A DNA stretch of 64,000 nucleotides, taken from assembly GCA_033439295.1 (NCBI GenBank), contig JAVTLE010000008.1, positions 2,852,001 through 2,916,000 on the forward strand, written 5' to 3'. The position numbers were made by a program, and so were the translations under genes. Every line of letters begins with the position of its first letter. Within the stretch, counting starts at the first letter, position 1. This stretch comes from Deuterostichococcus epilithicus (Eukaryota; Chlorophyta; Trebouxiophyceae; Prasiolales; Stichococcaceae). A model generated the notes under the pieces. It had not been told where the DNA came from and made no database searches. It saw only the letters and a program-made list of their open reading frames with translations. Below, one piece after another: positions 36,001 to 50,846 of the stretch.

Positions 36001-39000
36001 GCCGGAAGTCACCACCCGCATCGCGGCAGTTGCGTGCCGCTACCCCACGGCGGCAGGCAACAAGCAGCCCGGACCAGAGGGCTTCTGGGCGTCGCTGCAG
36101 GCGGGCGCCAACCTGCAGAGCGTGGTGCCGGCGGGGCGCTGGGACATCGACGCCTGCTTCGCGCCCGACTTCTCGCCAAAGTGAGACCCGCCCTGATGCA
36201 GTCTGCAGCAGTAGTTTTGCCAAAGATACGAGTGTGTCGCTGGCAGGCTGGCTGGCCTGGGCGGTAGGCTGCGAAATTTCCCGCCGCAGCAGCAGGTACT
36301 GCTGCTGTTTTTCCGATGCTGCACGCTTGATGCCGCAGCACCTTCTCAGCGAGCCAAACTGACATGCTAAACGTTCTGAGGAAAAGTTTTGTGAAGTAAG
36401 GTTTCCACGCTGTGCAGGGAGCTGGCAGTGTGCTTCTTGGACGTATCTGGCAATGTTCTCAGAGAAGTTTCAAAATTCCCTTTGCCGCCGCCACAGGAGG
36501 ATGTACGTGCGCTTTGGCGCCTTTGTGGACGGTGTGGAGCGCTTCGACTCGGGCGCCTTCCGGCTTCCGTATGCGGAAGCGGCGGCGCTTGACCCGCAGG
36601 CACGCATCCTGCTGGAGCAGACGCACGTGCGACTCCCTGTGCTTTCCTGCTGCAACTCTTGACTGCACGATTTGCAGCACCTTTGGCGACCTCAGGTCCA
36701 GCAGTCTGCAGTTTGGATGTGGCGTGAGGGCAGCGCTAGGCGACATGATGTGCAGCTGTCATATTCCAACTGGACATAGGATGGTGGTCTGCTGCTGCAG
36801 AACACAGCATGCTGAAGTCAAGTCAATCCGACTTGGGTGCCTGGGCTTCAATCTAAATAGAAATGCAGTTTCTCTCGTTGCCGACACCTTTGCCCCTCAC
36901 CAATGTATGATTATTCGACCTCGAAACCACACTTGCATTCGGCACTGCAGTCGACGTTCGCTCAGGCTCCTGCCATTTCATCAATCATGCAAACTCAACC
37001 GCCTGGCTTTGGACGCTCCCAGGAGGCGCTGCGCGCCGCCGGCTTGGCATTTTCCCTGCACGACGCCGCCGCCACCGGCGTGTACGTGGGCTGCATGTAT
37101 ACAGAGTACCTGGACGGGACTCTGGCGCCGCAGGGCGTCGCCGATGCGGCGTCTGCGGCTGTCACGGGCCATGGCCTCAGCTTCCTGGTCGGGCGTGTGT
37201 CCTACACTTTCGGCCTGCAGGTGCGGTTGCAGCTGCAGACTCACATCGAAGGGGTGCTGTTCACAAGGGTTGCAGCTGAACGCAGCGCCAAACACAGGAT
37301 GAATCACACTGCCTGGTCCAGTGAAGTACACATGGTGCGGGTGAGTAAGTGGTCACTTGGGATGGAACTAGGCTGGCAACTCGTGCTGTGGAGGTGCTGC
37401 AAGTCTAGAGACAGTTCGACGGCACCAGCCTTGGGTGACACGGCAGGCGTCAGCGCAGCAGGATGCGCGGAGTGCGCACCTTCTGACTGCGGCACCCGTG
37501 TGCACATTGGAGGAACTTGTCGACCGCGTGTGCACCTGCGCTGCCCGGTGGCCGCTGCGCCACAGCAGTAGCAACACAAACTCGAAGTTTGAACCCTACC
37601 AACTGATCAGACCGGTGCGGCGGCTGAGACTGAGGCTGAGGCGACTGATGCAGCAGAGACTAACATCACCTCCCCATGATATAGGTCCCTCGGGCGCAGC
37701 ACGGAGGCAGCCTATTCTTTGGTGCCTGAGACCCGGATGGCTGTACTGCAGGGCCTGTGTATGAGTGTGCACACAGCCCTAGCCACTCGTCGAGCTGCTT
37801 TTCAAAGAAACTTCGCCGAGCTTGCTGAAGCCTCTGAATCCTAGACTCCAAACCTGCACCCCCTCAATGCAGGGGCCGTGTGTGAGCACGGACACAGCCT
37901 GCTCCAGCTCGCTGGTGGCGGCGCACCTTGCTGCAGAGGGTTTGGCTGGCCAGGCAGGCGGCGCAGCGCTCGCGGGCGGCGTGAACGTGATGCTGCTGGC
38001 GCAGACAACGGCGCGCATCTGCCTGCTGCAGGCAAGTGGTGCTCTGCGCTGCCGCGACTGATCAGCCTTCGCACTGTTCTGCACCTGAGGCAGCGCGAAT
38101 ACGACAGTGCCTTACTGGGAGCCTCGCCAGCACACTACCACCAGCAGGAGTTTCGAAGACACCTTTGTCTTTGGGGTTATTGATGCTTGGTCAGCCAGCG
38201 GCGTCATCAACGTGACCGCAGGCGCTGTCCCCAGTGGGCCGCTGCAAGAGCTTCGATGCCAGCGGCGATGGCTACGGCCGCGGCGAGGGCTTCACGGTTG
38301 CTTACCTCAGGTGTGGGGCCTGTCCAGCATCGTCAAAGGCTACCTGCTGCTGCAGACAGACAACAAAACGGCTTCTGCTAGAATTCATGCCGGGCTCCCC
38401 TTGGGAATGCACAAGATCCGAATCCATGATGTCTGCAACTGTGCCGCCAGCCAGCATGCTGCTTGGACTGCCCCTGGCTGCACCGTCTCGTTTCCTTCAG
38501 GACATTGGACGCGCAAAGGTTCCTGCGTCTTTTCAGGTTGCACTTCTCAGGCTCCTTGCCACAACAAAGGTCAAGGCTGTCTACTGTGCACAGGCGGGCT
38601 GGCGAGGCGGAGCATCGGGACTGGGGCCACGGCGGCGCCGTCATCACCGGCTCAGCGGTCGCTCAGGATGGCCGGTCCAGCAGCCTGACGGCGCCCAACG
38701 GCCCGTCCCAGCAGGCCCTGCTTAGGTGCACAGACGCATCAAGCTCATGGTCGTCCCGATGCTCCGTGTCAGCGGGCTGCTCTGCAGATGACATTATTGG
38801 GCCTAGACTTTGTAAGTGTGTCACTGAAGGTTCCTGCATATCCGTTTTGGAAGTTTCGGCATTGCGTAGTCGCAGACTGAATCACAACGAGACGTCCGAC
38901 CCTGAAACTGCAGGACCGCGCTGCACACGGCGGCCGCAACGCCAGGCGCCGTGGCTTTTATAGCGGTGCACGGCACCGGCACGCCGCTGGGCGACCCCAT

Positions 39001-42000
39001 CGAGGTGGGCGCCCTGGGTGCGGCGCTCGGCGGCGGCGGCGGCGGAGGCTCTGGCGGCGATGCCGCGGCGCCGCTCGTGCTGGGCTCGAATAAGGTGGGT
39101 GGTCGTCACTATGCGTGGTCGGCACGCCCTTGAACGGCGGGGAAAAGGGATCCAGAGCACGCTACTCATCTGCGCTGGTGACTAAGGTGCGCTGACATTC
39201 ACGAGCTGCTGTGCTGGGTGCCGACGTGCACTGCTGCCAGTGTCAATTCGTTTGGGAAGCCTTCAGAGATTCCTCTGGGCATGTGCTCCTGGACGCCGTG
39301 ATGCCGGCTGCGCCCCTTGCATGCTAAGACTGCCCACGCTCTGCTTGCTGACGGTTGCCACGCTCTGGACAGGCATGCTACGGGCACACAGAGGGCACTG
39401 CCGGCGTGACCGGCGCGCTGCTGGCGGCGGTGGGGCTGGCCCGGTGCGTGGCGCCGCGCATCGTCAACCTGAGGGAGGTGAATCCTTACGTCGGCGCGGC
39501 GGTGGCGGACTGGCGGCGCGGCGGCGGCGGACGGACGGCGCTGCTGCCCCGGCAGACGGCACCCGTGGCAGATGCAAAGGTTGACGCCTGCCTTCGCTGC
39601 TCTCGATGATGCCCCGAGGGTCATGAGGCAACCTGAACCGCCAGGGACAGCGGCCGGCAGTAGTGGGTCTGGTGTTGCAGTAAGCGTGCACCTGTTCAGG
39701 TGCTCTACACTTTCAGAGATACTGGAATGCGGTCATGCCGCTGTGCCAGCATAAGGTGCCTGTGAATGCTGCACTCATGCTGTCATCTCGTGTGCCATGT
39801 TCCACTGCCTATCGACGCAGCTGAGCATCGAGGGCATGCCCTGAGCATTCGATGCGCAGTTCGCCGATGCACTGAAAAGACAAGCGCCTGAGATGTCAGC
39901 AGAACCACATGCTGCATGTCCTGGGTCGGTCAACTCCAGCGGCACATGTTGGGCAGGGCGCAGCCGCCGTGCGTTTCCGGCAGTGGGCAAACTGCCACAC
40001 TGTCCTTGCCGCGCAACACTGATGTAGATCAGCCCGACCAGCATTCACAGCGTCCAGAACCGTTTTCTGCAGGACACTTCTGGAGGAGCGCCAGTGGCAG
40101 GGACCAGCTCCTTCGGCATGAGCGGCGTCAACGCACACCTGCTGCTGCAGCAGCATGCGCCCGACGACCTGCCGTCACCAAAAGCCGCCGAAAAAGCTGT
40201 GCCTTGGCGGCGGGAACGCAACTGGTTTGCACCGGCGGCGCACGAGCTGCTCCGGTTGGCGCTGGCGCGATGCGGCGCCCCCGGCAGCTGGCACGCAGAA
40301 TTCGCTGCAGCGCTGCCATCAGCAGTGACGGCGTACCTGCGGGACCACCAGGTAGACAATGTAATTCTAGGAATAAGGCGATTCTGGAATGGAAAATCCC
40401 CCAAACATGCAATGGCAGCTGCTGCTTAGTGCACGCCTGAGGCTTGGCGCACACAGATTCGGGTTCCGCAAAACCAGCAGCGGCCCCCGGCATGCACCGA
40501 GCCTTTTTAAGTTCTTTTCGAAACCTTCATCGCCGCTCTTGTTGTCAGTGGTTTCGGTGACGGGCAGGCGGCTGGAACTGGGTCTGCGGGGTTTAGCCGA
40601 GCATGGTGTTTCGAACATTGCTGCACTGTGTGCACAGGTGCAAGGCAGGGCGCTGCTTCCGGGAGCGGCCCTCTTCGAAGTCGCGGCTGCCGCCAGCGGC
40701 ATGCTGGCCAGCTGCGACGCGCTGCCGCCGCCGGTGGCAAAGCTGTCGCTGCTGACGGGCGTCGCCATCCTGGCGCCGCTCGTGCTGGCGGCAAGCGGCG
40801 CACCGCAGCTTCTCGTCTGTTCCGTTGATGCCAGGTGCTCCCAAGACCGTTTCCTTCCCCGTCACGCTTGTCCTGCAGGCTGACACTAGGGCAGCAACAC
40901 ACCAACAGACACCAGTGCTGATGCGCACATCAGACCATGGACGTGTGTCCTGTTCGATGTACAGGGTCGGCAGCCTGACTGTGCGCACCCACCGCGGCGT
41001 GCATCTGTCAGGCGACATCGCGGCTGCCAGCGACGCCAGCCCGCAGACTACGGCAGGGGTTGCCCAGCCTGCAGCCCTGCCAAGCCTTCCAGCAGCCGCT
41101 GCAGCACACATCGCAGCTGCTCTGGCCTGCCTGCCGACGGGCAGCAGCCGGCGAGGCAAGGCGGCAGCGGAACAGCGCAAGCTGGCCCAGATCAACCATT
41201 CAGGCGCAGCTGCTTCCGGCTACCTGCTGCACCCTGCTGTGGGCGACAACTGCATCCATATCGCCGCCGTCTCAGGTGTGCATGCCGGTATTTCAACTTT
41301 CAATACTTGCTCAGCATTTCCTCTTGACAGCACCTCGAGACAGACGCGCCTCTTACTAGCGTATTGTTAAGTGTCTGTTCTTGCTGAGCTAGTCACACTG
41401 CAAGAACAGCGGCATATACTCCACATCTGGACAGAGACTGTTCTTGCTGAGCTAGTCACACTGCAAGAACAGCGGCGCATACTCCACATCTGGCATCCAG
41501 CTGGCACCCTAGCTCACATTCGCGAGACATACTTCGCGGTGTCGCAGACGGTGCACACGCGGAGTCGTCCACGAAGGTGCCGGTGGGTGTCGCGGCGCTG
41601 CGCATCCGCCGCGCCCTCGACGCTGGCAGAAGCGCCGCTGCTGCTTCCAGCAGCCTGTGGGGCGGCGCCAGCGCTGACGCCGTTTTTGCGGACGGCTCGG
41701 GGCTCAGCAGTGCGCAGTGGGGCAGCTGCTGCGCCGTCAGCGGCCTCATGGCGAAGGTCATGCTGGGTGAGTGGTTTGTCGCAAGACGCACTGTCTTCGA
41801 GGTCAGATGCGGGCCACATGACTGCTGCATGATGGGGTTCTATGACGAAAAGACATACACGCAAGCAGGTCTAATTCGGAGACGGTTGCAAGCCTGGGCT
41901 TTGCATCAGCAAGATGCTGAGACCTCAACGCCACTGCTGTCGAAACATGATGCAAACCGCCTCATTGTCGCTGTGCAGGCGCTGGCACACCACAGCAGCC

Positions 42001-45000
42001 GCCCGAGCAAACGTCCTACACTGTCGAGTGGCAGATGGTGGACTCGGCGGCGATGCCGGTGCTCAGCGGCGTCTTCGCCAGCCAGGCCGGCGGGCCGGCT
42101 GCCGCGTGGCATGCTGCCGGCGCCAGCTCGAGCAGCATGCGGCTTGCCGCGGGTGCTTTGCCCATTTCAGCCGTCATCCGCAGCCTGCAGTTCCTGCAGG
42201 TGTGCTTAGTGGTTGCTCAGGAAGGCTGCACCTGTCCACTCTAGTCTTGTGCAGCATATACCTTTGTGGAGTTGCGCATGGCATGATGGAATCGACATGA
42301 CTCGCGGTCCGGGCAAGGAAGGCGAGAGTATGCTCCGCCGCAGCAGGCTGACGATGCGCCGTAGATCCAGCAAATGCTCTTTCGGGCTCAATGCGGCTGT
42401 GTCGCTGCACAGGTAGCAACACGGGGGGCCGCTCAGACGCTGCGCTTCACGGCGCGGCACACACCCGCGGCCCTAGCGGGTCCCGCGGGAGCCCAGGGCG
42501 GNGCTGCCACCAGGGCAGCGGCCGGCCTCTGGGGGCTGCTGCGGGTGGCGGCGGCAGAGGCGCCACAGCTCTCCTGCAGCGGCATCGCCGCAGACTCGCC
42601 GGGATCGGCGGGCGTCCAGCAGCTCGCCGGTGGGCAGCCTGCAGGCCTGCGGCACAGCATCCGGCATGCAGCTGCCACCAGACTGCAGGGACCTGTGTAT
42701 GCAGACGGACACGTCGCGGCGTTGACGGCAGGCGGTTGGGCGGCACCGCGATTGCTTCCTGCTGTCGCGCCTTCTTCTCGCGGCACTGTGGCTGGGCGGT
42801 CCATGGGGGACCTCCATCACATGCCCCTGCGAGGTACAGAAACACTGTCCCTGAGTGTCACCAGCCTGCATCGGTGCAGTCGACATGCTTGCATGCTCAC
42901 ATCACGCAGTGGAGCTGCATACTCTCTGCTTCAAGCTGCAATCGGGTGTAGCGGCTGCTGGAACCATCGCAGGTCGGTGGCAGCAGCTGTGTCGACGCTT
43001 GCCAAGGGCTGACTCCTTCTGCATTTTTTGCCAGCTTGCTCTTCTTCAGGGATGGTTGCACACTGGTTTCTCCTGCTGACTGCACATTGCAGGAGAGATC
43101 ATCATCACTGGCGGGCTGGGAGCGCTTGGCGTCCTCATCGCATGCTGGGCAGCAGTTGCAGGCGGCGGCTCCGGCCGCCACAGCGCCGTCGGCAGTGGCA
43201 GCGGCGCAGCTGCCGTCCGCCTGCTCAGCCGCAGCGGCCGCCCGGACGCGGCGGCGCTGCGTCCCGCCTCCGCCCTGCACGGCCTGCTGGCAGCAGGCAG
43301 CGGCGTCGGCGACCTCTCGATCAGCATCGAGCGCTGCGACGCCGCTGTGGCAGAAGACGCACGGGGTGCGATGCGGCGGTGCGGGCGGAGCGTGTGCACG
43401 CTCCTGCATGCTGCGGGCGTGCTGAAGGTGGGCCAAGCTGATCTGGGCTCCGGTCAGAGACATGTTGAGCAAGTACATGCTTGACAGCGACACGACCGGT
43501 CACTGCCGCATGCACCGCGGACAGGCAGGTGCCTGTACCGAAGGCTCATCTGCTGCAGTGATTTCCCGCGGCGGAGTCTAATTGATAGCAGGAATTCATC
43601 ATGGCGTTGATGTCGCACATCGTCAATGATCTCTACAGGACGGCGCCATCGCCAACCAGACAGCGGCAGGCGTTCGCGCCGCCTGGGCGCCCAAGGCGGC
43701 GGCTGCGGACAGGCTGCTGGAAGCAGGGATCCGGCAGCCGCTGGCGGGCGTCGCCCTGTTCTCCTCAGTCGCGGGGCAGCTGGGCTCGGCAGGGCAGGCC
43801 AACTACGGCGCCGCCAATGCGGCGCTGGATGCCACCGCTGACCGGCTGCAGTCGCAGGTGCGGCTGCGTGGCGGCATCCGAGCATCTGGTCGCCACAGAA
43901 TATTGAACCTATTTCATCGGGCTTATTTCACAACGGATGTTTGATAACAAGCATTCGTCAGGGTGATCCTTTGAGCCTGGCCCGACGGCATCACCAGTCA
44001 GACATCAGAGTCATGCATCCAGCGAGCAGGTCCAGCGCGTCCCGCTGCACCTGACCCTTGATAAAGGCGCTGATGTCGCATGTGGTGCGGGACCATGCTC
44101 GGATAACGCGCACTGTGCCGGCCATATAACACAGCGCCATGAACCAGAACGCCACGACTGTCGTGCAGATGCCACGGCTGCATCCAGCTGAAGACGCATG
44201 CAGATGAACCAGGGCTGCTCTAAGTGCCTCTACAGGCCCACCTGACACATTGCTGCGGAGAGGCGCCTGGGGCGACGGCCAAGCTGTCGATTGCCTGCTG
44301 GGGGAAACGTGTTGCTTGTGGTCAATAGCATGGCGGCCAATCTGCCGCCTGCCTGCTGGCAGCAAAGCTTTTCTTATGGTGGATAATGTGTTTACATTGC
44401 AGCTTTTACCATTGCATCTGCTGGACGACTGTGGAGTCACAGAAGTGGGGCATCAGCTGTATGGAGGACGATGTGCAGCAGCACAATCTGTTTGCGCTGA
44501 CACACCTGGCTGTGACTTGAAGCTTCCTCCACCTCTGCCGCAGGGCCTGATGGGCGTTGCGCTGCAGTGGAGCGCCTGGGGCGGCGTCGGCGTGGCAGAC
44601 GACGCGAGCCTGGCAGCACGTCGCAGGAGCCTCCGACAGTAGACACAAAGCTGCACTGACCCTCTGGATTGAGCTCTGCAGGGCTTGGCGGGCGTGGCGC
44701 TGCAGTGGGGCGCCTGGGGCGGCGGCGGCATGGCGGCCGACGCGGGCCTGGCAGCGCGCCTGGTTCGGGCTGGCATGGGCCTGCTGCGCCCCGCGGCCGG
44801 GCTGGCGGCGCTGGCTGCCTCACTGCGCTTCGCAGCAGGTGCGCTGCTCGTGCAGTACACTGCAACAACCTCTGTGATTTACACTTTGTGCAATTAGAAG
44901 GGCATCTGCAGCGACAGGTGTATGACGCTGCGGCGCGCGCTGCGGCGCGTTGGCATGCACACTGTCCTGGCCTTTGCCCAATCTGCCATTATTGGGGTGT

Positions 45001-47905
45001 GTGCTGGCATCCGGTGACTTCCATCACCCTGAAACCCAGATCCTGCTCGGACACAAATAACGCTATCACTGGTTGCCACACGGTGTCGACATGAGCGAAA
45101 GACAAGGGTCTGTGATCCAGAATCCAGTGTCCTCACCGGCCGACCACTACAAGTAACGGTTGGCTTCCTCGGTGCACAGGCACCTCTCCGCAAGTCACGG
45201 TGGCGATGCTGCTGTGGGACCGCCTGCTGGTCGGCAGCCGCAAGGACGCTTTCTTTTATGGCGAGGCGGCCCTCGGCCTCGCAAGTATGGCAGTGCCGCT
45301 GGCCACGGCACCACACAGCAGCACAGCGGATGTTCCGGCGACGGGCCTGGCTGCCGCCACGGTTGCGACACTAGGTGCGGCGCCGGCGGCAGCCGCAGCG
45401 GCTGCTGTGGGGCCACCATGGCTGCGCTTGGACGCAGGCGAGCGCAGCCGCTGGGCGGCCAAAACGATCGGCACGGCGGTGTCGAAGCTGGTTGGCCGAC
45501 CCGTCGGCGCTGAGGAGCCGCTGATGACCGCGGGCCTGGACTCGCTGACGGGTGTCGAGCTGCGGACGGAGCTGGCCGCTGCCACGGGGCTGCAGCTGCC
45601 GGCCATGCTGGCATTCGACTACCCTACGCCAGAGGCGCTGGCGGTCTGCCTGGTGGAGCTGATGGCGGAAGCGGCGGCAGCGGCGCAGGCGGCGGCGGCG
45701 GCTGCAGGCAAGAGCGCGCCAGCAGCGGCGACGGCAAGTGCCGCGAGGCATGCAGGGCCGGCCGCGGTGGGCAGCAGGATCGCCGTTGTGCAGCAAGCAG
45801 CGCCTCAGGGTGGAGCAGCAGTAATTGCGGACGGGCCGGCCTGGCTGCATATGGGGCCGGCTGAGCGCGTAACCCACATCCGTCGTCAGGTGCGGAGAGA
45901 TGCGGTGGACACCTGCTGCTGTGTCCATGACGCAGAGGTACTCGGTGACAGGACCAGCCGAAGAAGGCTCGACCTCCTGCGCAAACGCTGGGTCAAATGC
46001 CTTCACTGCGGCCCACTCATCTGCAGTCACCACCGCAAGCACGAACATGAGCTGTTTCGACATGGACGTTCGCTCAGAGAACCTGCCAGCCGCCACAGGT
46101 GGCGTCTGTGGCGGAGCGCGTCGTCGGTGCGCCGGTGCCGCAGGCGGAGCCGCTGATGCAGGCGGGGCTGGACTCACTGGGGGCGGTGGACCTGCGGCGG
46201 GAGTTGGCGGCAGCGCTTCAGCTGGGTGAGTTCGGCTTCGTTTCGAGAGACGTGTTGCTGACGGTTTTCTGTGTGCAGGGCGCAGAGCAGTGCATGCGCG
46301 GCTGCAGATATGGCTGGCGCTGCTGCTCCGTCATGATCTGCTTCTTTCCTTTCCGTGCCTTCGCCGCTAGCAAAGCGAAGTTGAAATTGACCAGCGTCTA
46401 GTCTCATTCAGCAAGGCTTCGAGACCACGTCGAGACCACACCAAGCGTGAGCTGGCCGCCTGACGCACGCGATGGGCATAGCACGACTGGTGTATTCGTA
46501 GATGCTGATGTTGATACAGCTGCTGCTGTCGTAGGGCCGGACGAGCTGCCGCCGACGCTGGTATTCGACTACCCTTCTGTGGATGCCATCAGCGACTTCG
46601 TGATGACGCTGCTGCCTGCTGCGCTGCCCGCAGACGCTGCTGCTGTTATCACCGCATCCCCAGGTGAATTCAAATGCGGCGCCGTGGTGTAGATGACCAT
46701 CATTGGCAGGCACGTGCATGGCAGAAGGTGCACTCTCAGGCCAGCACCCTCCCAGCCCTGCTGCTTGACTTTTGCAGCGGATTATGCGTGGCGCTCCTGC
46801 AGCCAGACTACAGGCGTCATATACATCAGATATTGCACTTATGCCCACACTCAACACAGCAAATCGTCCATGGCCCAGGTGCCCCAGGTGCGGCAGCAGA
46901 GCTCAAGCCGAAGCAGCGGGCGGTGCCGGCAGCCAACCCGAACGCGCCCACGCTGACGCGGAAGGGCTACTACACCGTGCCGCCGTTGCGGCTGCTGCGG
47001 CGGCTGCCTGACGAGGAGCTGGCGGCCCTGGAGCGGTTCGTCGTCGGGCGCGAGGACACCGGCGAAGTGCAGTTCCTGCAGGTTAGTACGGTTCAGAGGT
47101 ATTTGGGGGTTCTGTAAGTTGTTGTTGGAGGACGATCAGGAGTTATTCTGACCACCGCATGTGTGCCATGCTGCGGTGGGTCGACCGCATCAGGTCTTCA
47201 GGCTAGACCACCAGACTACCTGTGCACTGGGGGCCTGCCAGTGGTACTGCTGCAGGATCCTCCACAATCTGCTGTTGCGTTTGTGCCGCTGCAGCCCCGG
47301 ATGAAGGGCATCGCAGCCGCATTCACTACCCACATGCATGCATCACTGCAGTGGATGCCATCATCATGTCCTGCCAGACCGCTGCTTCGACCGGCATCAT
47401 CGTAACGTGCAATATATGCTATGTGCAGCCGGTGGACGTGCGGGGCCTGGACATTGACGCCATTGCGGAGATCGAGAAGGGCAAGATCGTGCTGTATCCT
47501 GAAGCAGCAGCGGCGGTGACCGAGCAGCCCGCTGCAGGGCGGCCTGACGCCGCTGCGGGATCTGGCAAGCCAGCACGACAACCTGCCAGCCAAAAGGCCC
47601 ACACTTCGGGAACCGCTTCTGTGGAGACCAAGCCGGTGCTGTCGCAGCCAGCAGCAGCAGCGCTGCCGGGCGCTGCTCAGCCGGCAGGCCCGCAGCCGGC
47701 GGCTGCAACGCCAGAGCGGGGCACCGGGTTGAACGTGCCAGCACTGTTGACATTCAAGCGCATGCTCGTGAAGGACAGGGACAACGCAGCAGCTGTAGCG
47801 AGGTTCCGCGCCAAGCTCGAGGCGCACGCCGTGAAGATTGGCGCCGTGTTTGTGCACTACGAGGCATCGAGCGGCACCTGGGTCATGAAGGTGGACGGTC
47901 TGTAG
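1..47905 (+). CDS. Giant AT-less modular type I polyketide synthase, 3' part, ending in a Nup98-like domain
   Basis: Partial multi-exon gene; the 5' end lies outside the window and the first coding exon seen is 298-389. It builds a polyketide by repeated condensation, ketoreduction and dehydration on carrier proteins. I placed about 83 exons by matching GT/GC donors and AG acceptors to conserved PKS motifs. Phases chain from 298 to the TAG stop at 47903-47905, with one exception at 33060-33069. Order: KS1(partial)-DH1-KR1-ACP-ACP / KS2-DH2-ER-KR2-ACP / KS3-DH3-KR3-ACP-ACP / KS4-DH4-KR4-ACP-ACP / Nup98-type domain. No acyltransferase, thioesterase or terminal reductase motif was found. AT domains acting in trans are described for multimodular algal PKSs. 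Introns take about 60% of the span. Exon KS4 begins with ATG at 35978, so a separate gene for module 4 cannot be fully excluded. Certain as a PKS; exact exon edges are less sure. Confidence 0.93.
298..3241 (+). other. KS1 ketosynthase domain (C-terminal two thirds)
   Basis: Exons 298-389, 586-840, 1441-1678, 2316-2498 and 3052-3241. The exon with the active-site cysteine (DTACSSS) lies upstream of the window. What remains includes [14 protein letters not shown] and DGYGRGEG, then [14 protein letters not shown]. The first catalytic histidine is in [11 protein letters not shown] and the second in KACFGHTEG. The domain ends with the [15 protein letters not shown] motif. It catalyses decarboxylative Claisen condensation. 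Three of its introns begin with GC rather than GT (841, 1679, 3242). The KS is followed directly by a dehydratase, with no acyltransferase between them. Confidence 0.93.
3399..5396 (+). other. DH1 dehydratase domain and linker
   Basis: Exons 3399-3492, 3694-3824, 4102-4382, 4594-4790 and 5298-5396. The double-hotdog dehydratase signature is clear. The catalytic His (codon 3445-3447) sits in an HX3GX4P motif read as [11 protein letters not shown], and the catalytic Asp is in [10 protein letters not shown] (canonical HPALxDxxLQ). It should dehydrate the 3-hydroxyacyl chain made by KR1. Introns after 4382 and 4790 use GC donors (gcaaga, gcaagc). The last exon, with [11 protein letters not shown], is a linker whose equivalent recurs after DH4. 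A Ser replaces the usual first His of the HPAL motif; the effect is unknown. Confidence 0.88.
5530..8710 (+). other. KR1 ketoreductase domain
   Basis: Exons 5530-6254, 6585-6744, 7347-7577, 8050-8260 and 8537-8710. The first exon starts with the structural subdomain (RYTVQWQA) and ends with the Rossmann NADPH-binding motif [11 protein letters not shown] followed by LLLGRSGR. The catalytic Ser is in FSSIAGVLG and the Tyr (codon 7524-7526) in [13 protein letters not shown], so the Ser-Tyr-Asn set is intact. The domain reduces the beta-keto group to a hydroxyl. The final exon is a linker leading to the carrier proteins. Confidence 0.92.
8993..9417 (+). other. ACP1a acyl carrier protein, plus start of ACP1b
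   Basis: This exon carries a complete acyl carrier protein with [14 protein letters not shown]. The Ser codon 9064-9066 is the phosphopantetheine attachment site, followed by [11 protein letters not shown]. An acidic Ala/Gly linker then leads into helix 1 of a second ACP, and the exon stops at PFME just before the next GLDSL motif. The tandem arrangement recurs in modules 3 and 4. Confidence 0.93.
9739..10012 (+). other. ACP1b acyl carrier protein and start of KS2
   Basis: The exon opens exactly at [12 protein letters not shown] (Ser codon 9751-9753) and continues [12 protein letters not shown], completing the second carrier protein. An Ala/Arg/Ser linker follows. The last residues (TRFPGAASG) are the N-terminus of the next ketosynthase. 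The exon break just before AGLDSL is also seen in ACP3b (34885), a sign of module duplication. Confidence 0.92.
10098..10172. repeat. Intronic inverted repeat in KS2
   Basis: Perfect 13-base arms, 10098-10110 and 10160-10172, lie in the intron between 10013 and 10373. Weaker pairing continues inward (ACACACC at 10114-10120 with GGTGTTG at 10149-10155). The RNA could fold into a hairpin. Confidence 0.7.
11591..11603. repeat. Interstitial telomere-like TTTAGGG motif
   Basis: GGGTTTAGGGTTA lies in the intron 11573-11759. It matches about two units of the plant/Chlorella-type telomere heptamer. Confidence 0.6.
11969..12024. repeat. Intronic hairpin in KS2, near-perfect 21-base stem
   Basis: The left arm 11969-11989 pairs with 12004-12024 at 20 of 21 positions; the one mismatch is C11974 with A12019. 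The loop is 14 bases. It lies in the intron 11852-12181, well away from the splice sites. The size is compatible with a small-RNA precursor or a small foldback element. Confidence 0.85.
13352..13367. repeat. Interstitial telomere-like CCCTAAA motif
   Basis: CCCTAAACCCTAAAAC lies in the intron 13291-13640: two CCCTAAA units, the reverse complement of TTTAGGG. Confidence 0.65.
14250..15267 (+). other. DH2 dehydratase domain and linker
   Basis: Nearly the whole domain lies in the long exon 14057-14987, followed by 15120-15267. The catalytic His (codon 14305-14307) is in [11 protein letters not shown] and the Asp in [10 protein letters not shown], both matching the DH consensus. The next exon carries the linker [14 protein letters not shown], whose counterpart in module 3 (near 29800) reads [14 protein letters not shown]. 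It should yield an enoyl intermediate, which the ER in the same module can then reduce. Confidence 0.9.
15371..15994 (+). other. Module 2 structural KR subdomain
   Basis: A single exon begins with YAVVWQAA, the usual first strand of the non-catalytic ketoreductase subdomain. It includes the typical [16 protein letters not shown] segment. In fully reducing PKS modules this subdomain precedes an inserted enoyl reductase, and that is the order seen here. The exon ends at CTG before gtatgg. Confidence 0.8.
16494..19960 (+). other. ER enoylreductase domain (only one in the window)
   Basis: Exons 16494-16657, 17207-17377, 17562-17767, 18203-18409, 18749-18843, 19120-19219 and the first part of 19807-20005. 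Motifs in order: substrate-domain [19 protein letters not shown] with [14 protein letters not shown], the [12 protein letters not shown] segment, the NADPH-binding [16 protein letters not shown] split across an intron, [12 protein letters not shown], and [17 protein letters not shown]. The family reduces the 2,3-double bond with NADPH, so this module should give a saturated chain. The intron at 17768 starts with GC. A broken copy of the 17207 exon lies just upstream (17078-17158). Confidence 0.93.
17078..17158 (+). pseudogene. Degenerate tandem copy of an ER exon
   Basis: This 81-base block sits behind its own acceptor (tttgcag) and before a plausible donor (gtgtac). It closely resembles the true exon at 17207: both begin GCTGCAGCCCGGC and share the GCCGTCGGCCTCAA stretch. 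A net deletion shifts the frame relative to the real exon. In the phase supplied by the preceding exon it runs into TGA. Only 48 bases separate it from the real exon, too short for a normal intron here, so it is probably skipped. Confidence 0.75.
19940..22059 (+). other. KR2 ketoreductase domain
   Basis: Exons: end of 19807-20005, then 20437-20633, 21013-21113, 21369-21530 and 21857-22059. The NADPH motif is [12 protein letters not shown], continuing across an intron into [11 protein letters not shown]. The catalytic Ser is in FSSIAAQLG and the Tyr (codon 21477-21479) in [27 protein letters not shown] closes the fold. All catalytic positions are intact. Together with DH2 and ER it makes module 2 fully reducing. 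Confidence 0.93.
20252..20370. repeat. Intronic imperfect foldback in KR2
   Basis: CTGGGTCTGG-TGTCATTGG near 20255 is mirrored by CCGATGACACTCAGACCCAG near 20341, with one gap and one mismatch. Between and around them are two related direct copies of TGACTGCGCC(A/G)TGG (near 20231 and 20307). The element lies in the intron 20006-20436. Confidence 0.55.
22491..23646 (+). other. ACP2 acyl carrier protein (single)
   Basis: Exons 22491-22729 and 23472-23646. A poly-Ala linker precedes the carrier domain; the phosphopantetheine site is in VEAGLDSLG (Ser codon 22723-22725). The intron falls directly after that motif, unlike the ACP1b and ACP3b boundary, which lies just before it. The second exon gives [10 protein letters not shown] and [12 protein letters not shown]. 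This is the only module in the window with one carrier rather than two. Confidence 0.92.
23749..23890 (+). repeat. Short direct repeats around the KS3 acceptor
   Basis: CAGATGGCTGCT occurs at 23749, 23761 and 23851. GCAGGGTGCCAG occurs at 23805, 23820 and 23884. The last copy contains the acceptor I chose for exon 23888-24218, so the other two are possible competing 3' splice sites. Phase supports only the last. Confidence 0.75.
24642..24660. repeat. Interstitial telomere-like TTTAGGG motif
   Basis: AGGGTTTAGGGTTTAAACC lies in the intron 24219-24909: two TTTAGGG-type units followed by a short inverted end. Confidence 0.65.
25139..25297. repeat. Long intronic foldback in KS3
   Basis: The left arm, about 46 bases (25139-25184), pairs with the right arm 25251-25297. 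The inner 21 bases (25164-25184 with 25251-25271) pair completely with one G-U wobble; the outer part has several mismatches and one gap. The loop is about 66 bases. It lies in the intron 25090-25450. Confidence 0.82.
27950..29237 (+). other. DH3 dehydratase domain with altered HX3GX4P motif
   Basis: Exons: end of 27447-28120, then 28265-28408 and 28761-29237. The catalytic His (codon 28115-28117) and the Pro are present, but the motif reads [10 protein letters not shown], with Arg in place of the conserved Gly. The Asp motif [10 protein letters not shown] is intact. The His and Asp suggest it may still dehydrate, but the Gly-to-Arg change makes activity uncertain. Confidence 0.83.
28554..28619. 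repeat. Intronic hairpin in DH3
   Basis: A perfect 14-base stem (28562-28575 with 28598-28611) is extended, after a 2-base internal mismatch, by six more pairs (28554-28559 with 28614-28619). The loop is 22 bases. It lies in the intron 28409-28760. Confidence 0.82.
29676..33149 (+). other. KR3 ketoreductase domain, with a frameshift
   Basis: Exons 29676-29883 (linker with [14 protein letters not shown]), 30460-30696 ([11 protein letters not shown]), 31039-31323, 31460-31629 ([21 protein letters not shown]), 31869-31992, 32528-32760 (FSSIAALLG; Tyr codon 32707-32709 in [11 protein letters not shown]) and 32965-33149. The catalytic set is intact. In the last exon the frame of [13 protein letters not shown] changes to that of [14 protein letters not shown] between 33060 and 33069. 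The second frame is the one the next exon needs. One missing base would explain it, and an n at 33016 in the same exon suggests poor sequence quality. Confidence 0.88.
33487..34250 (+). other. ACP3a acyl carrier protein and linker
   Basis: Exons 33487-33630 (KR-ACP linker, [11 protein letters not shown] and [12 protein letters not shown]), 33822-34004 and the start of 34211-34447. The carrier domain runs [30 protein letters not shown] (Ser codon 33912-33914) and [13 protein letters not shown]. The intron at 34005 separates this last motif from the final helix. Confidence 0.92.
34340..35067 (+). other. ACP3b acyl carrier protein
   Basis: Second carrier of the tandem pair, on exons 34211-34447 and 34885-35067. 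The first exon ends SQPLME and the next opens [16 protein letters not shown] (Ser codon 34897-34899), then [12 protein letters not shown]. This is the same break as in ACP1b. A long interval (35068-35977, about 910 bases) follows before KS4. I see no coding motif in that interval. Confidence 0.92.
35978..40180 (+). other. KS4 ketosynthase domain
   Basis: Exons 35978-36180, 36497-36626, 37023-37220, 37873-38031, 38222-38310, 38594-38725, 38914-39094, 39373-39579 and the start of 40073-40351. The first exon starts with ATG right after a cgcag acceptor and gives [13 protein letters not shown] and GFWASLQAG. Catalytic Cys (codon 37900-37902) is in [12 protein letters not shown], His in [11 protein letters not shown], and the second His in [11 protein letters not shown]. 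The usual NQDG reads AQDG. It groups with KS1 and KS2 ([16 protein letters not shown]). The intron at 38032 has a GC donor. Confidence 0.93.
40200..41766 (+). other. DH4 dehydratase domain
   Basis: Exons: end of 40073-40351, then 40638-40834, 40965-41275 and 41548-41766. The HX3GX4P motif is split by an intron after [13 protein letters not shown] (His codon 40346-40348). The Asp motif is [10 protein letters not shown]. The final exon has [19 protein letters not shown], the linker equivalent to the one after DH1. Motifs are intact, so activity is likely. The intron 41276-41547 holds a 63-bp tandem repeat. Confidence 0.89.
41375..41493. repeat. Tandem 63-bp repeat with hairpins in a DH4 intron
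   Basis: Two copies of about 56 bases start at 41375 and 41438 and are almost identical (one reads CGGCATATACT, the other CGGCGCATACT). Each contains the inverted pair TGTTCTTGC / GCAAGAACA with a 15-base loop (41376-41408 and 41439-41471). The repeat lies in the intron 41276-41547. Confidence 0.88.
41979..44838 (+). other. KR4 ketoreductase domain
   Basis: Exons 41979-42199 (SYTVEWQMV), 42413-42833 ([17 protein letters not shown]), 43093-43427 ([20 protein letters not shown]), 43639-43857 (FSSVAGQLG; Tyr codon 43804-43806 in [13 protein letters not shown]) and 44682-44838 ([14 protein letters not shown]). The catalytic residues are intact. An n at 42502 lies in the second exon. The interval 43858-44681 contains a broken copy of the last exon. 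Confidence 0.92.
44544..44621 (+). pseudogene. Degenerate tandem copy of the last KR4 exon
   Basis: After its own acceptor (gccgcag) this block reads [20 protein letters not shown]. The true exon at 44682 reads [20 protein letters not shown]. Similarity runs for about 26 codons and then stops, before the RAGMGLLRP part of the real exon. In frame it soon meets a TAG (44641-44643), and I see no good donor. It is probably a partial exon duplicate left inside the intron. Confidence 0.78.
45180..45889 (+). other. ACP4a acyl carrier protein and long linker
   Basis: One long exon holds the KR-ACP linker ([12 protein letters not shown]), an Ala-rich stretch, and a carrier protein: [34 protein letters not shown] (Ser codon 45542-45544), [16 protein letters not shown] second Ala-rich linker (about 60 residues) and the first helix of ACP4b ([15 protein letters not shown]) complete the exon. 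Confidence 0.92.
46099..46663 (+). other. ACP4b, last acyl carrier protein
   Basis: Exons 46099-46225 and 46535-46663. The motif [17 protein letters not shown] contains the phosphopantetheine Ser (codon 46174-46176). After a phase-1 intron comes [16 protein letters not shown]. The exon ends ITASP with one leftover base (phase 1), which fits the acceptor of the Nup98-like exon. No thioesterase or reductase follows, so the release step must be supplied elsewhere or happen without one. Confidence 0.92.
46888..47905 (+). other. Nup98-type autoproteolytic-like domain at the PKS C-terminus
   Basis: Exons 46888-47081 and 47429-47905 (stop TAG). The sequence resembles the C-terminal domain of Nup98 (nucleoporin2 / peptidase S59 family): [12 protein letters not shown], then [32 protein letters not shown], a low-complexity Ala/Pro/Gln insert of about 72 residues, [12 protein letters not shown] and [11 protein letters not shown]. 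In Nup98 the domain ends in His-Phe-Ser, where it cuts itself; here the chain stops at GL, so that site is missing. No FG repeats precede it. The phase-1 junction from ACP4b fits exactly. Either it is fused to the PKS or it is a small separate gene whose ATG I could not identify. Confidence 0.8.
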
Positions 47906-50197: not shown

Positions 50198-50846
50198 CTA
50201 TTTGCCCGTGAGGGCCCCCAGAGACTGGTTCTCGAACTCCACCATCTGCTGCTCCCGATCCATCTCCACGATCAGCGGCGCCACCAGCAGCAGAAAGGTG
50301 GTGCTGGCGATCCAGGCCGCCTTGCCAGTGGACCTGCGGAGAAAAGATGTTTGCGCACATCAACTTTTGCCGTTACTATGCTAGCGATTTAAGTGTCGCA
50401 GGAGGGGCATGGGTCAGAAGGGCCACCGCTGGGTCGGGACAGCGCTTCTGTGTCAGTCTGCGTGATGCCTTAGCACCCAGTACAGTGGCAGGGCCGCCTT
50501 CTGCCGCTGCTCCCATGCTCTCTGGCCAGCTCAAGTATGCACCGGCCACTTCAAAGCGGGTTCTTGAACAAGATCGATACATGTAACATCATGCATCGAC
50601 GCACAGAGGCGTGCAAGCAACTTGGTCAGCTGCCAGGTGCATTCAGGTTTCCTGGATGTGACCTCCAACTGCTGCGCAGCGAATGCAATGAAGGCCGCAG
50701 ACGCAAGGCGCAGCAGGACGTTTCAAAAGCCTGAATAAGACGAGGTGCTGCGGCACGCACTTTGCGAGCTTCCAGGCCACGTAGCTGGTGTTGGCGACTG
50801 CGTTGCGGGCAGTGGTCACGACGTCACCGTTCGCGGAGGCCGCCAT
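50198..50846 (-). CDS. TOM22: TOM9/TOM22-like mitochondrial import receptor subunit
   Basis: Two exons on the minus strand: 50846-50761 (ATG, MAASANGDVVTTARNAVA) and 50333-50198 (stop TAG), joined in phase 2. The product has 73 residues. It is a tail-anchored subunit of the outer-membrane TOM complex. The diagnostic part is STGKAAWIASTTFLLLVAPL, then VEMDREQQ, which closely matches plant TOM9. Residues about 33-52 form the single membrane helix. As in plant TOM9, the long acidic cytosolic domain of fungal TOM22 is absent. The start is 205 bases from the divergent acetyltransferase start, so they probably share a promoter region. Confidence 0.88.

Follow-up and report, generated by a model that had tools for sequence, protein, structure and literature searches.

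A Nup98-type autoproteolytic domain at the predicted C-terminus of a giant polyketide synthase in the green alga Deuterostichococcus epilithicus

We analyzed a 64,000-nucleotide stretch of the Deuterostichococcus epilithicus genome (assembly GCA_033439295.1, contig JAVTLE010000008.1, positions 2,852,001 to 2,916,000 of the forward strand), referred to below as the window, and examined the part of it that holds the end of a giant polyketide synthase (PKS) gene. Positions without a prefix refer to the + strand of the window, and C7 denotes the contig carrying it, such that C7:2888465 equals window position 36465. Behind the two terminal acyl carrier protein (ACP) domains, at 46888-47905, lies the sequence of an autoproteolytic domain (APD) of the type found in the nucleoporin Nup98. 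We consider it probable that this APD is fused in frame to the PKS as a non-cleaving docking domain, and that it replaces the thioesterase (TE) at the end of the enzyme.

The open reading frames (ORFs) holding the two parts of the domain both match the Pfam profile PF04096 above its cut-off of 28.4 bits, the first with 29.1 bits (E 1.3e-6) and the second with 43.0 bits (E 6.5e-11). A preliminary description of this locus had proposed exactly this comparison with the nucleoporin2/peptidase S59 family, and its assignment held up. When the spliced domain was compared with the PDB, 23 of 177635 distinct sequences matched at E<=1e-3, every one of them Nup98, Nup145 or Nup116 (best E 3.7e-14). On the strength of these matches in both ORFs and in the PDB, we identify 46888-47905 as a genuine Nup98-type APD, predicted to be split into two exons. 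Exon 1 covers 46888-47081; a predicted intron at 47082-47428, in phase 0 on both sides, is followed by the residues PVDVRGLD, as in the APD family; and exon 2, at 47429-47905, ends at the position of the C-terminus of cleaved Nup98.

Three features of the domain noted in the preliminary description were borne out. The C-terminus reads KVDGL and then stops, without the His-Phe-Ser (HFS) triplet of the peptidase S59 cleavage site. Phenylalanine-glycine (FG) dipeptides are absent from the segment reaching from the second ACP (ACP2) through the APD, and the preceding 10.7 kb (36001-46663) hold 6-7 FG and no GLFG per frame, compared with 13-33 FG per frame in 4.2 kb of the genome’s own Nup98. Finally, a Pro/Ala-rich loop interrupts the domain at 47501-47719, as judged from spacer lengths, identity and codon score; it had been estimated at about 72 residues and measures 73 between YP and GTGLN, versus 8 in the genome’s own Nup98. 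Pfam searches of ten ORFs downstream of the APD gave no match.

We next considered how the APD is joined to the PKS. The exon phases given in the preliminary description were confirmed: the ACP2 exon closes at 46663 in phase 1, and the APD exon opens at 46888 with the matching phase. A start at 46879 is likewise in frame, and the spliced frame stays open up to the stop codon at 47903-47905. The interval between the two exons, 46664-46887, has a G+C content of 0.562, close to the 0.556 of the APD intron, compared with 0.635-0.722 in the ACP2 exon and both exons of the APD. We also scored codon usage, with a table of 784 codons from 14 ketosynthase (KS) and ACP matches of this PKS (one of them the first terminal ACP) set against the trinucleotides of the whole window. 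The stretch from 46674, the sole ATG in the APD frame within 46301-46890, to 46886 scores -0.50 bits per codon, similar to the APD intron at -0.52 to -0.74. Coding parts score +0.26 (ACP2 exon), +0.28 (APD exon 1) and +0.39 and +0.15 (the two exon-2 cores); the measure is coarse, since the coding Pro/Ala loop itself reaches only -0.09. Among random stop-free windows (n=5484), 74% score as high as or higher than 46674-46886, and 3% do so for APD exon 1. On these intron-like codon statistics we rejected a separate APD gene starting at ATG 46674.

Related sequences show the same arrangement. In P0043, from a 123-kb contig in ENA, a single 223-residue ORF holds an ACP (PF00550, E 6.2e-7) together with the N-terminal part of the APD (PF04096, E 1.4e-6), and in P0019 the end of an ACP and APD exon 1 likewise share one ORF; the two divergent ORFs align to the ACP2-APD order of the window at 49% and 64% identity, respectively. 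Methionines found near the N-terminus of some relatives are not conserved starts, since that of P0020 is Val in its close relative P0004 and that of P0002 is Ala in the window. Taken together, the intron-like character of 46664-46887, the relatives with ACP and APD in one frame and the non-conserved methionines make a fusion of ACP2 to the APD in this genome highly likely, with splicing predicted from 46663 to 46888. The preliminary description had also argued for one gene from the lack of a TGTAA signal in 46664-46887. TGTAA is indeed missing there, but as an argument this is uninformative, because the first TGTAA past the APD stop on the + strand is at 50582, and another occurs within the APD intron, at 47113.

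The tail belongs to a wider family. We found 18 relatives in a first protein search and 44 in a third, at least 45 distinct sequences in all (P0002-P0046); each of these searches scored the 8000 candidates sharing most words, so the family size is a lower bound. A search with P0019, which represents the exon 1 region, recovered only P0019 itself and P0002 among 25 candidates. Three members (P0040, P0044 and P0045) read like fragments of canonical Nup98. The end of the domain is reached by 26 of the 45 relatives, and all 26 lack HFS and stop there, with F as the last residue in 22, L in two and WL, one residue longer, in two; the other 19 end earlier, by reading because introns or ORF ends cut them. 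A phmmer comparison pairs the last Phe of P0003 with the C-terminal residue of the 880-residue human Nup98 chain in 7r5j, taken here as the mature terminus; for most yeast Nup116 chains, the alignment ends three residues short. Because HFS is absent and the stop coincides with the C-terminus of cleaved Nup98, the sequences indicate that members of this family are produced from the outset in the state that Nup98 gains only after cutting itself.

In an alignment of 17 relatives from the first search plus the genome’s own Nup98 (18 rows), which does not include the remoter members added by the third search, median identity to the window is 79% and 80% in the two exon-2 cores and 25% in the loop, whose length among the relatives ranges from 15 to 102 residues. 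The exon-1 core has a median identity of 70% over four rows, and the own Nup98 is 42% and 38% identical to the window in the exon-2 cores. Cores near 80% identity around a loop at 25% point to selection acting on the APD fold. In a tree of 24 rows, only long branches set the family apart from the genome’s own Nup98; we draw no conclusion on origin from it. Scans of viral and genome contigs with the same alignment gave 32 and 173 pattern matches, none encoding a relative, as expected because these collections are viral and prokaryotic. Most of P0006-P0017 carry a loop with common basic motifs (about RRRSIVRG and RSRSGAG), unlike the Pro/Ala loop of the window; these motifs are possible phosphorylation or targeting sites. 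Two divergent members, P0036 and P0037, end in DTWL, one residue longer, and have an Ala/Pro/Arg-rich loop.

To place the domain among known structures, we modeled the relative P0020 with AlphaFold2. A model from a cleaner alignment of nine sequences has a mean predicted local distance difference test score (pLDDT) of 69 and is usable in its N-terminal half, with blocks at 73-93 over the first 80 residues. All 21 of its PDB matches at E<=0.001 are APDs of Nup98, Nup145 or Nup116 (query TM score 0.42-0.69), suggesting by homology that the window copy also adopts the APD fold.

The genome encodes a separate, canonical Nup98, the existence of which had been raised as a check in the preliminary description. 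Its gene, on contig C5 (C5:1947400-1957037), contains FG-rich exons and an APD that ends in VEHFSRYG before an acidic stretch. A whole-genome PF04096 search (five candidates scored) gave four matches, namely the two pieces of the C7 APD and two pieces on C5, and both genome matches to PF12110 (Nup96) lie on C5 behind the canonical Nup98, with none behind the C7 APD. By these matches, the C7 copy is not the pore protein itself. Nor does it resemble a recent segmental duplicate of the C5 gene, because the APD intron positions of the two differ by eye.

The PKS that carries the tail fits a modular type I enzyme. Six groups of KS matches (grouped by hand) span C7:2826596 to 2890034 on the + strand, interspersed with ketoreductase (KR) and ACP matches, all repeated in the same direction, and we treat this run as one presumed gene. 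The KS of the last module lies in exon fragments at 36465-38034, with PF00109 matches at 36465-36623, 37017-37220 and 37867-38034 (C7:2888465-2888623, 2889017-2889220 and 2889867-2890034). It is followed by a KR piece at 43612-43857 (PF08659 at C7:2895612-2895857, E 3.6e-14, with one TGA within the six-frame match); a dehydratase match in this module is weak and below cut-off (E 0.0045). The first ACP of the terminal tandem occupies 45467-45643 (C7:2897467-2897643; its ORF matches PF00550 at E 6.5e-9). ACP2 is split between a first exon at 46099-46225, with limits set by eye and an ORF just below the PF00550 cut-off of 20.8 bits (18.9 bits, E 0.0019), and a last exon at 46535-46663, placed by splice frame and by alignment with P0043 and P0019, the ORF of which has no Pfam match on its own. 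Both ACPs contain the motif GLDSL. The predicted ACP2-APD intron at 46664-46887 could use an acceptor at 46887 or 46878, both in frame. The predicted order at the end of the PKS is KS-KR-ACP-ACP-APD.

A sister giant PKS on contig C19 (C19:2755304-2851984; ten KS groups, grouped by hand) ends in ACP-TE-ACP-TE, a duplicated carrier-thioesterase end in which both ACPs were read by eye. Both PF00975 thioesterase matches in the genome, C19:2848912 and C19:2851841, lie behind this sister PKS. The C7 PKS has its APD at the place where the C19 PKS has thioesterases, in agreement with the preliminary description, which had put the tail in the usual thioesterase position; release of its product would therefore fall to another factor, unless the search overlooked a thioesterase belonging to a different family. 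The acyltransferase (AT) profile PF00698 has one match genome-wide, on C5, and because of this the C7 PKS looks like a trans-AT enzyme, as in chlorophytes, although a very divergent AT could escape the search. Elsewhere in the genome, C11:1151552-1242372 holds 14 PF00550 carrier matches in a row on a single strand of a contig that has no ketosynthase match, and is probably another giant synthetase, for example a nonribosomal peptide synthetase.

What might the tail do? In an excerpt of PMC11148069, the animal APD is described as anchoring Nup98 to the Nup96 N-terminus or the Nup88 β-propeller, and in Chaetomium, Nup145N uses its APD to bind the Nup82 propeller (excerpt of PMC5653651). The simplest reading, in line with the docking or localization module suggested in the preliminary description, would be that the PKS took over this docking domain in its binding form: with no self-cleavage site and a coding sequence that stops at the cleaved Nup98 end, the protein would be made directly in the “mature” docking state. 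The APD would then most likely be a docking module tethering the megasynthase to an APD-binding partner, at the nuclear envelope or alongside another subunit, with the finished chain released in trans by a separate enzyme. Natural guesses for the partner are the Nup88 β-propeller, the Nup96 N-terminus, or some protein that descends from these or mimics them. The bolder proposal, that the captured domain tethers the PKS to Nup88 or Nup96 in post-cleavage form and thereby places a secondary-metabolite assembly line at the nuclear envelope, is possible but doubtful. It is conceivable that a PKS occupies a specific location in the cell, since Chlamydomonas PKS1 is said to act in zygote wall formation (excerpt of PMC12633428).

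Several points temper the case for a fused docking domain. P0043 and P0019 are mechanical gene calls that probably read through introns, and we therefore treat them as tight linkage in the same frame, not as sequenced messages. P0021, P0022 and P0023 start with Met 13-28 residues ahead of the domain’s PTLT and could be stand-alone genes in their own species. The structural support is partial: a first AlphaFold2 model of P0020, from 27 aligned sequences, was poor (pLDDT 50), its Foldseek search returned no matches at E<=0.001, which is meaningless for so poor a model, and in the better model the C-terminal third is low, with pLDDT 37-61 over the last 36 residues. The absence of a PF00975 match on C7 concerns this one thioesterase family, the only one searched. 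A search of the genome for Nup88 with PF10168 found no match, but is uninformative, since controls gave none either.

We weighed this reading against four alternatives, beginning with the possibility, also raised in the preliminary description, that the Nup98-like domain is a small gene of its own, a stand-alone mini-Nup98 without FG repeats lying 224 bases past the PKS. The Met found shortly ahead of the domain in P0002 and P0020-P0023 and the shared frame of ATG 46674 speak for such a gene. Yet the stretch after that ATG scores like an intron, the methionines of P0020 and P0002 are not conserved, and P0043 and P0019 hold ACP and APD in one ORF. Moreover, the unspliced PKS frame stops only at 46690-46692, beyond ATG 46674, so that two genes would overlap, and 224 bases leave little space for a 3' end, a promoter and a leader. 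A separate gene is thus very unlikely. Least probable of all is a functionless fossil of a chance fusion: the missing cleavage site and FG repeats would suit a relic, but the conservation of the exon-2 cores relative to the loop and the occurrence of the family in many contigs make this extremely improbable.

The remaining two alternatives concern the role of the domain. As a structural cap or chain-handling element, the APD would pack on the terminal ACPs, for example to stabilize a dimer or shield the acyl chain, without a nucleoporin-like partner. Its position directly on the tandem ACPs at the usual thioesterase place, the lack of a PF00975 match on C7 and its conserved core are consistent with this. 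However, the sequences show no sign of a gained catalytic function, and we know of no APD activity on thioesters; we regard a cap as distinctly unlikely. Alternatively, the tail could dock a trans-acting PKS partner with a peptide similar to the Nup96 N-terminus; a trans-AT, a free thioesterase or the next PKS would be examples. An enzyme that looks trans-AT, given the single PF00698 match on C5, would need trans partners, and release in trans would fit as well. The case is one of general plausibility. We judge this version unlikely, and it is a special case within the favored reading of a docking domain, with which its probability overlaps.

If the favored reading is correct, an APD has been kept as the end of an assembly-line enzyme, implying that a nuclear-pore anchoring module can be recruited by metabolism. 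It would offer a handle on the cellular location of giant algal PKSs and on product release without a terminal thioesterase, and the family provides a natural series of non-cleaving APDs stopping at the mature end, useful for asking what cleavage is for. The tail also occurs in related environmental sequences and is therefore probably a conserved module for attachment. To our knowledge, APDs are known only from nucleoporins of the Nup98 family. A literature search combining Nup98 or nucleoporin with polyketide synthase and algae, with most subscription journals outside its reach, found no report of a PKS-APD fusion.

Among known systems, the PKS itself most closely recalls the giant type I trans-AT enzymes of Chlorella variabilis and Chlamydomonas (PKS1), which are likewise multimodular, megadalton-sized and mostly without a cis AT (excerpt of PMC4661987). 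The main text of that source, which treats chlorophyte PKSs, contains no match for “nucleopor”, and a figure legend lists TE and Red but no APD.

The tail, in turn, shares its sequence family with the C-terminal APD of Nup98 (peptidase S59, PF04096) and, judged from the model of P0020, its fold, and the end of P0003 coincides with that of the human Nup98 chain in 7r5j. Unlike Nup98, the C7 copy has no His-Phe-Ser, no Nup96 behind it and no FG repeats, and is borne by a PKS. Compared with the genome’s own Nup98, the PKS-tail family has a gap of about six residues after TFRRM, and the group that includes the window has the long loop. Nup96 does not follow all Nup98 members, being absent behind yeast Nup116 and Nup100, the C-terminal domains of which are naturally uncleaved. 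These domains are APD homologues that tether the Nup82 complex (excerpt of PMC5653651). Nup116 and Nup100 are FG nucleoporins and not enzymes, unlike the protein carrying the PKS tail. C-terminal docking domains and terminal thioesterases of PKSs sit past the last ACP, the same position as the APD tail, and we know of no sequence relation between the APD and either of them; docking of a PKS through an APD would be a new solution.

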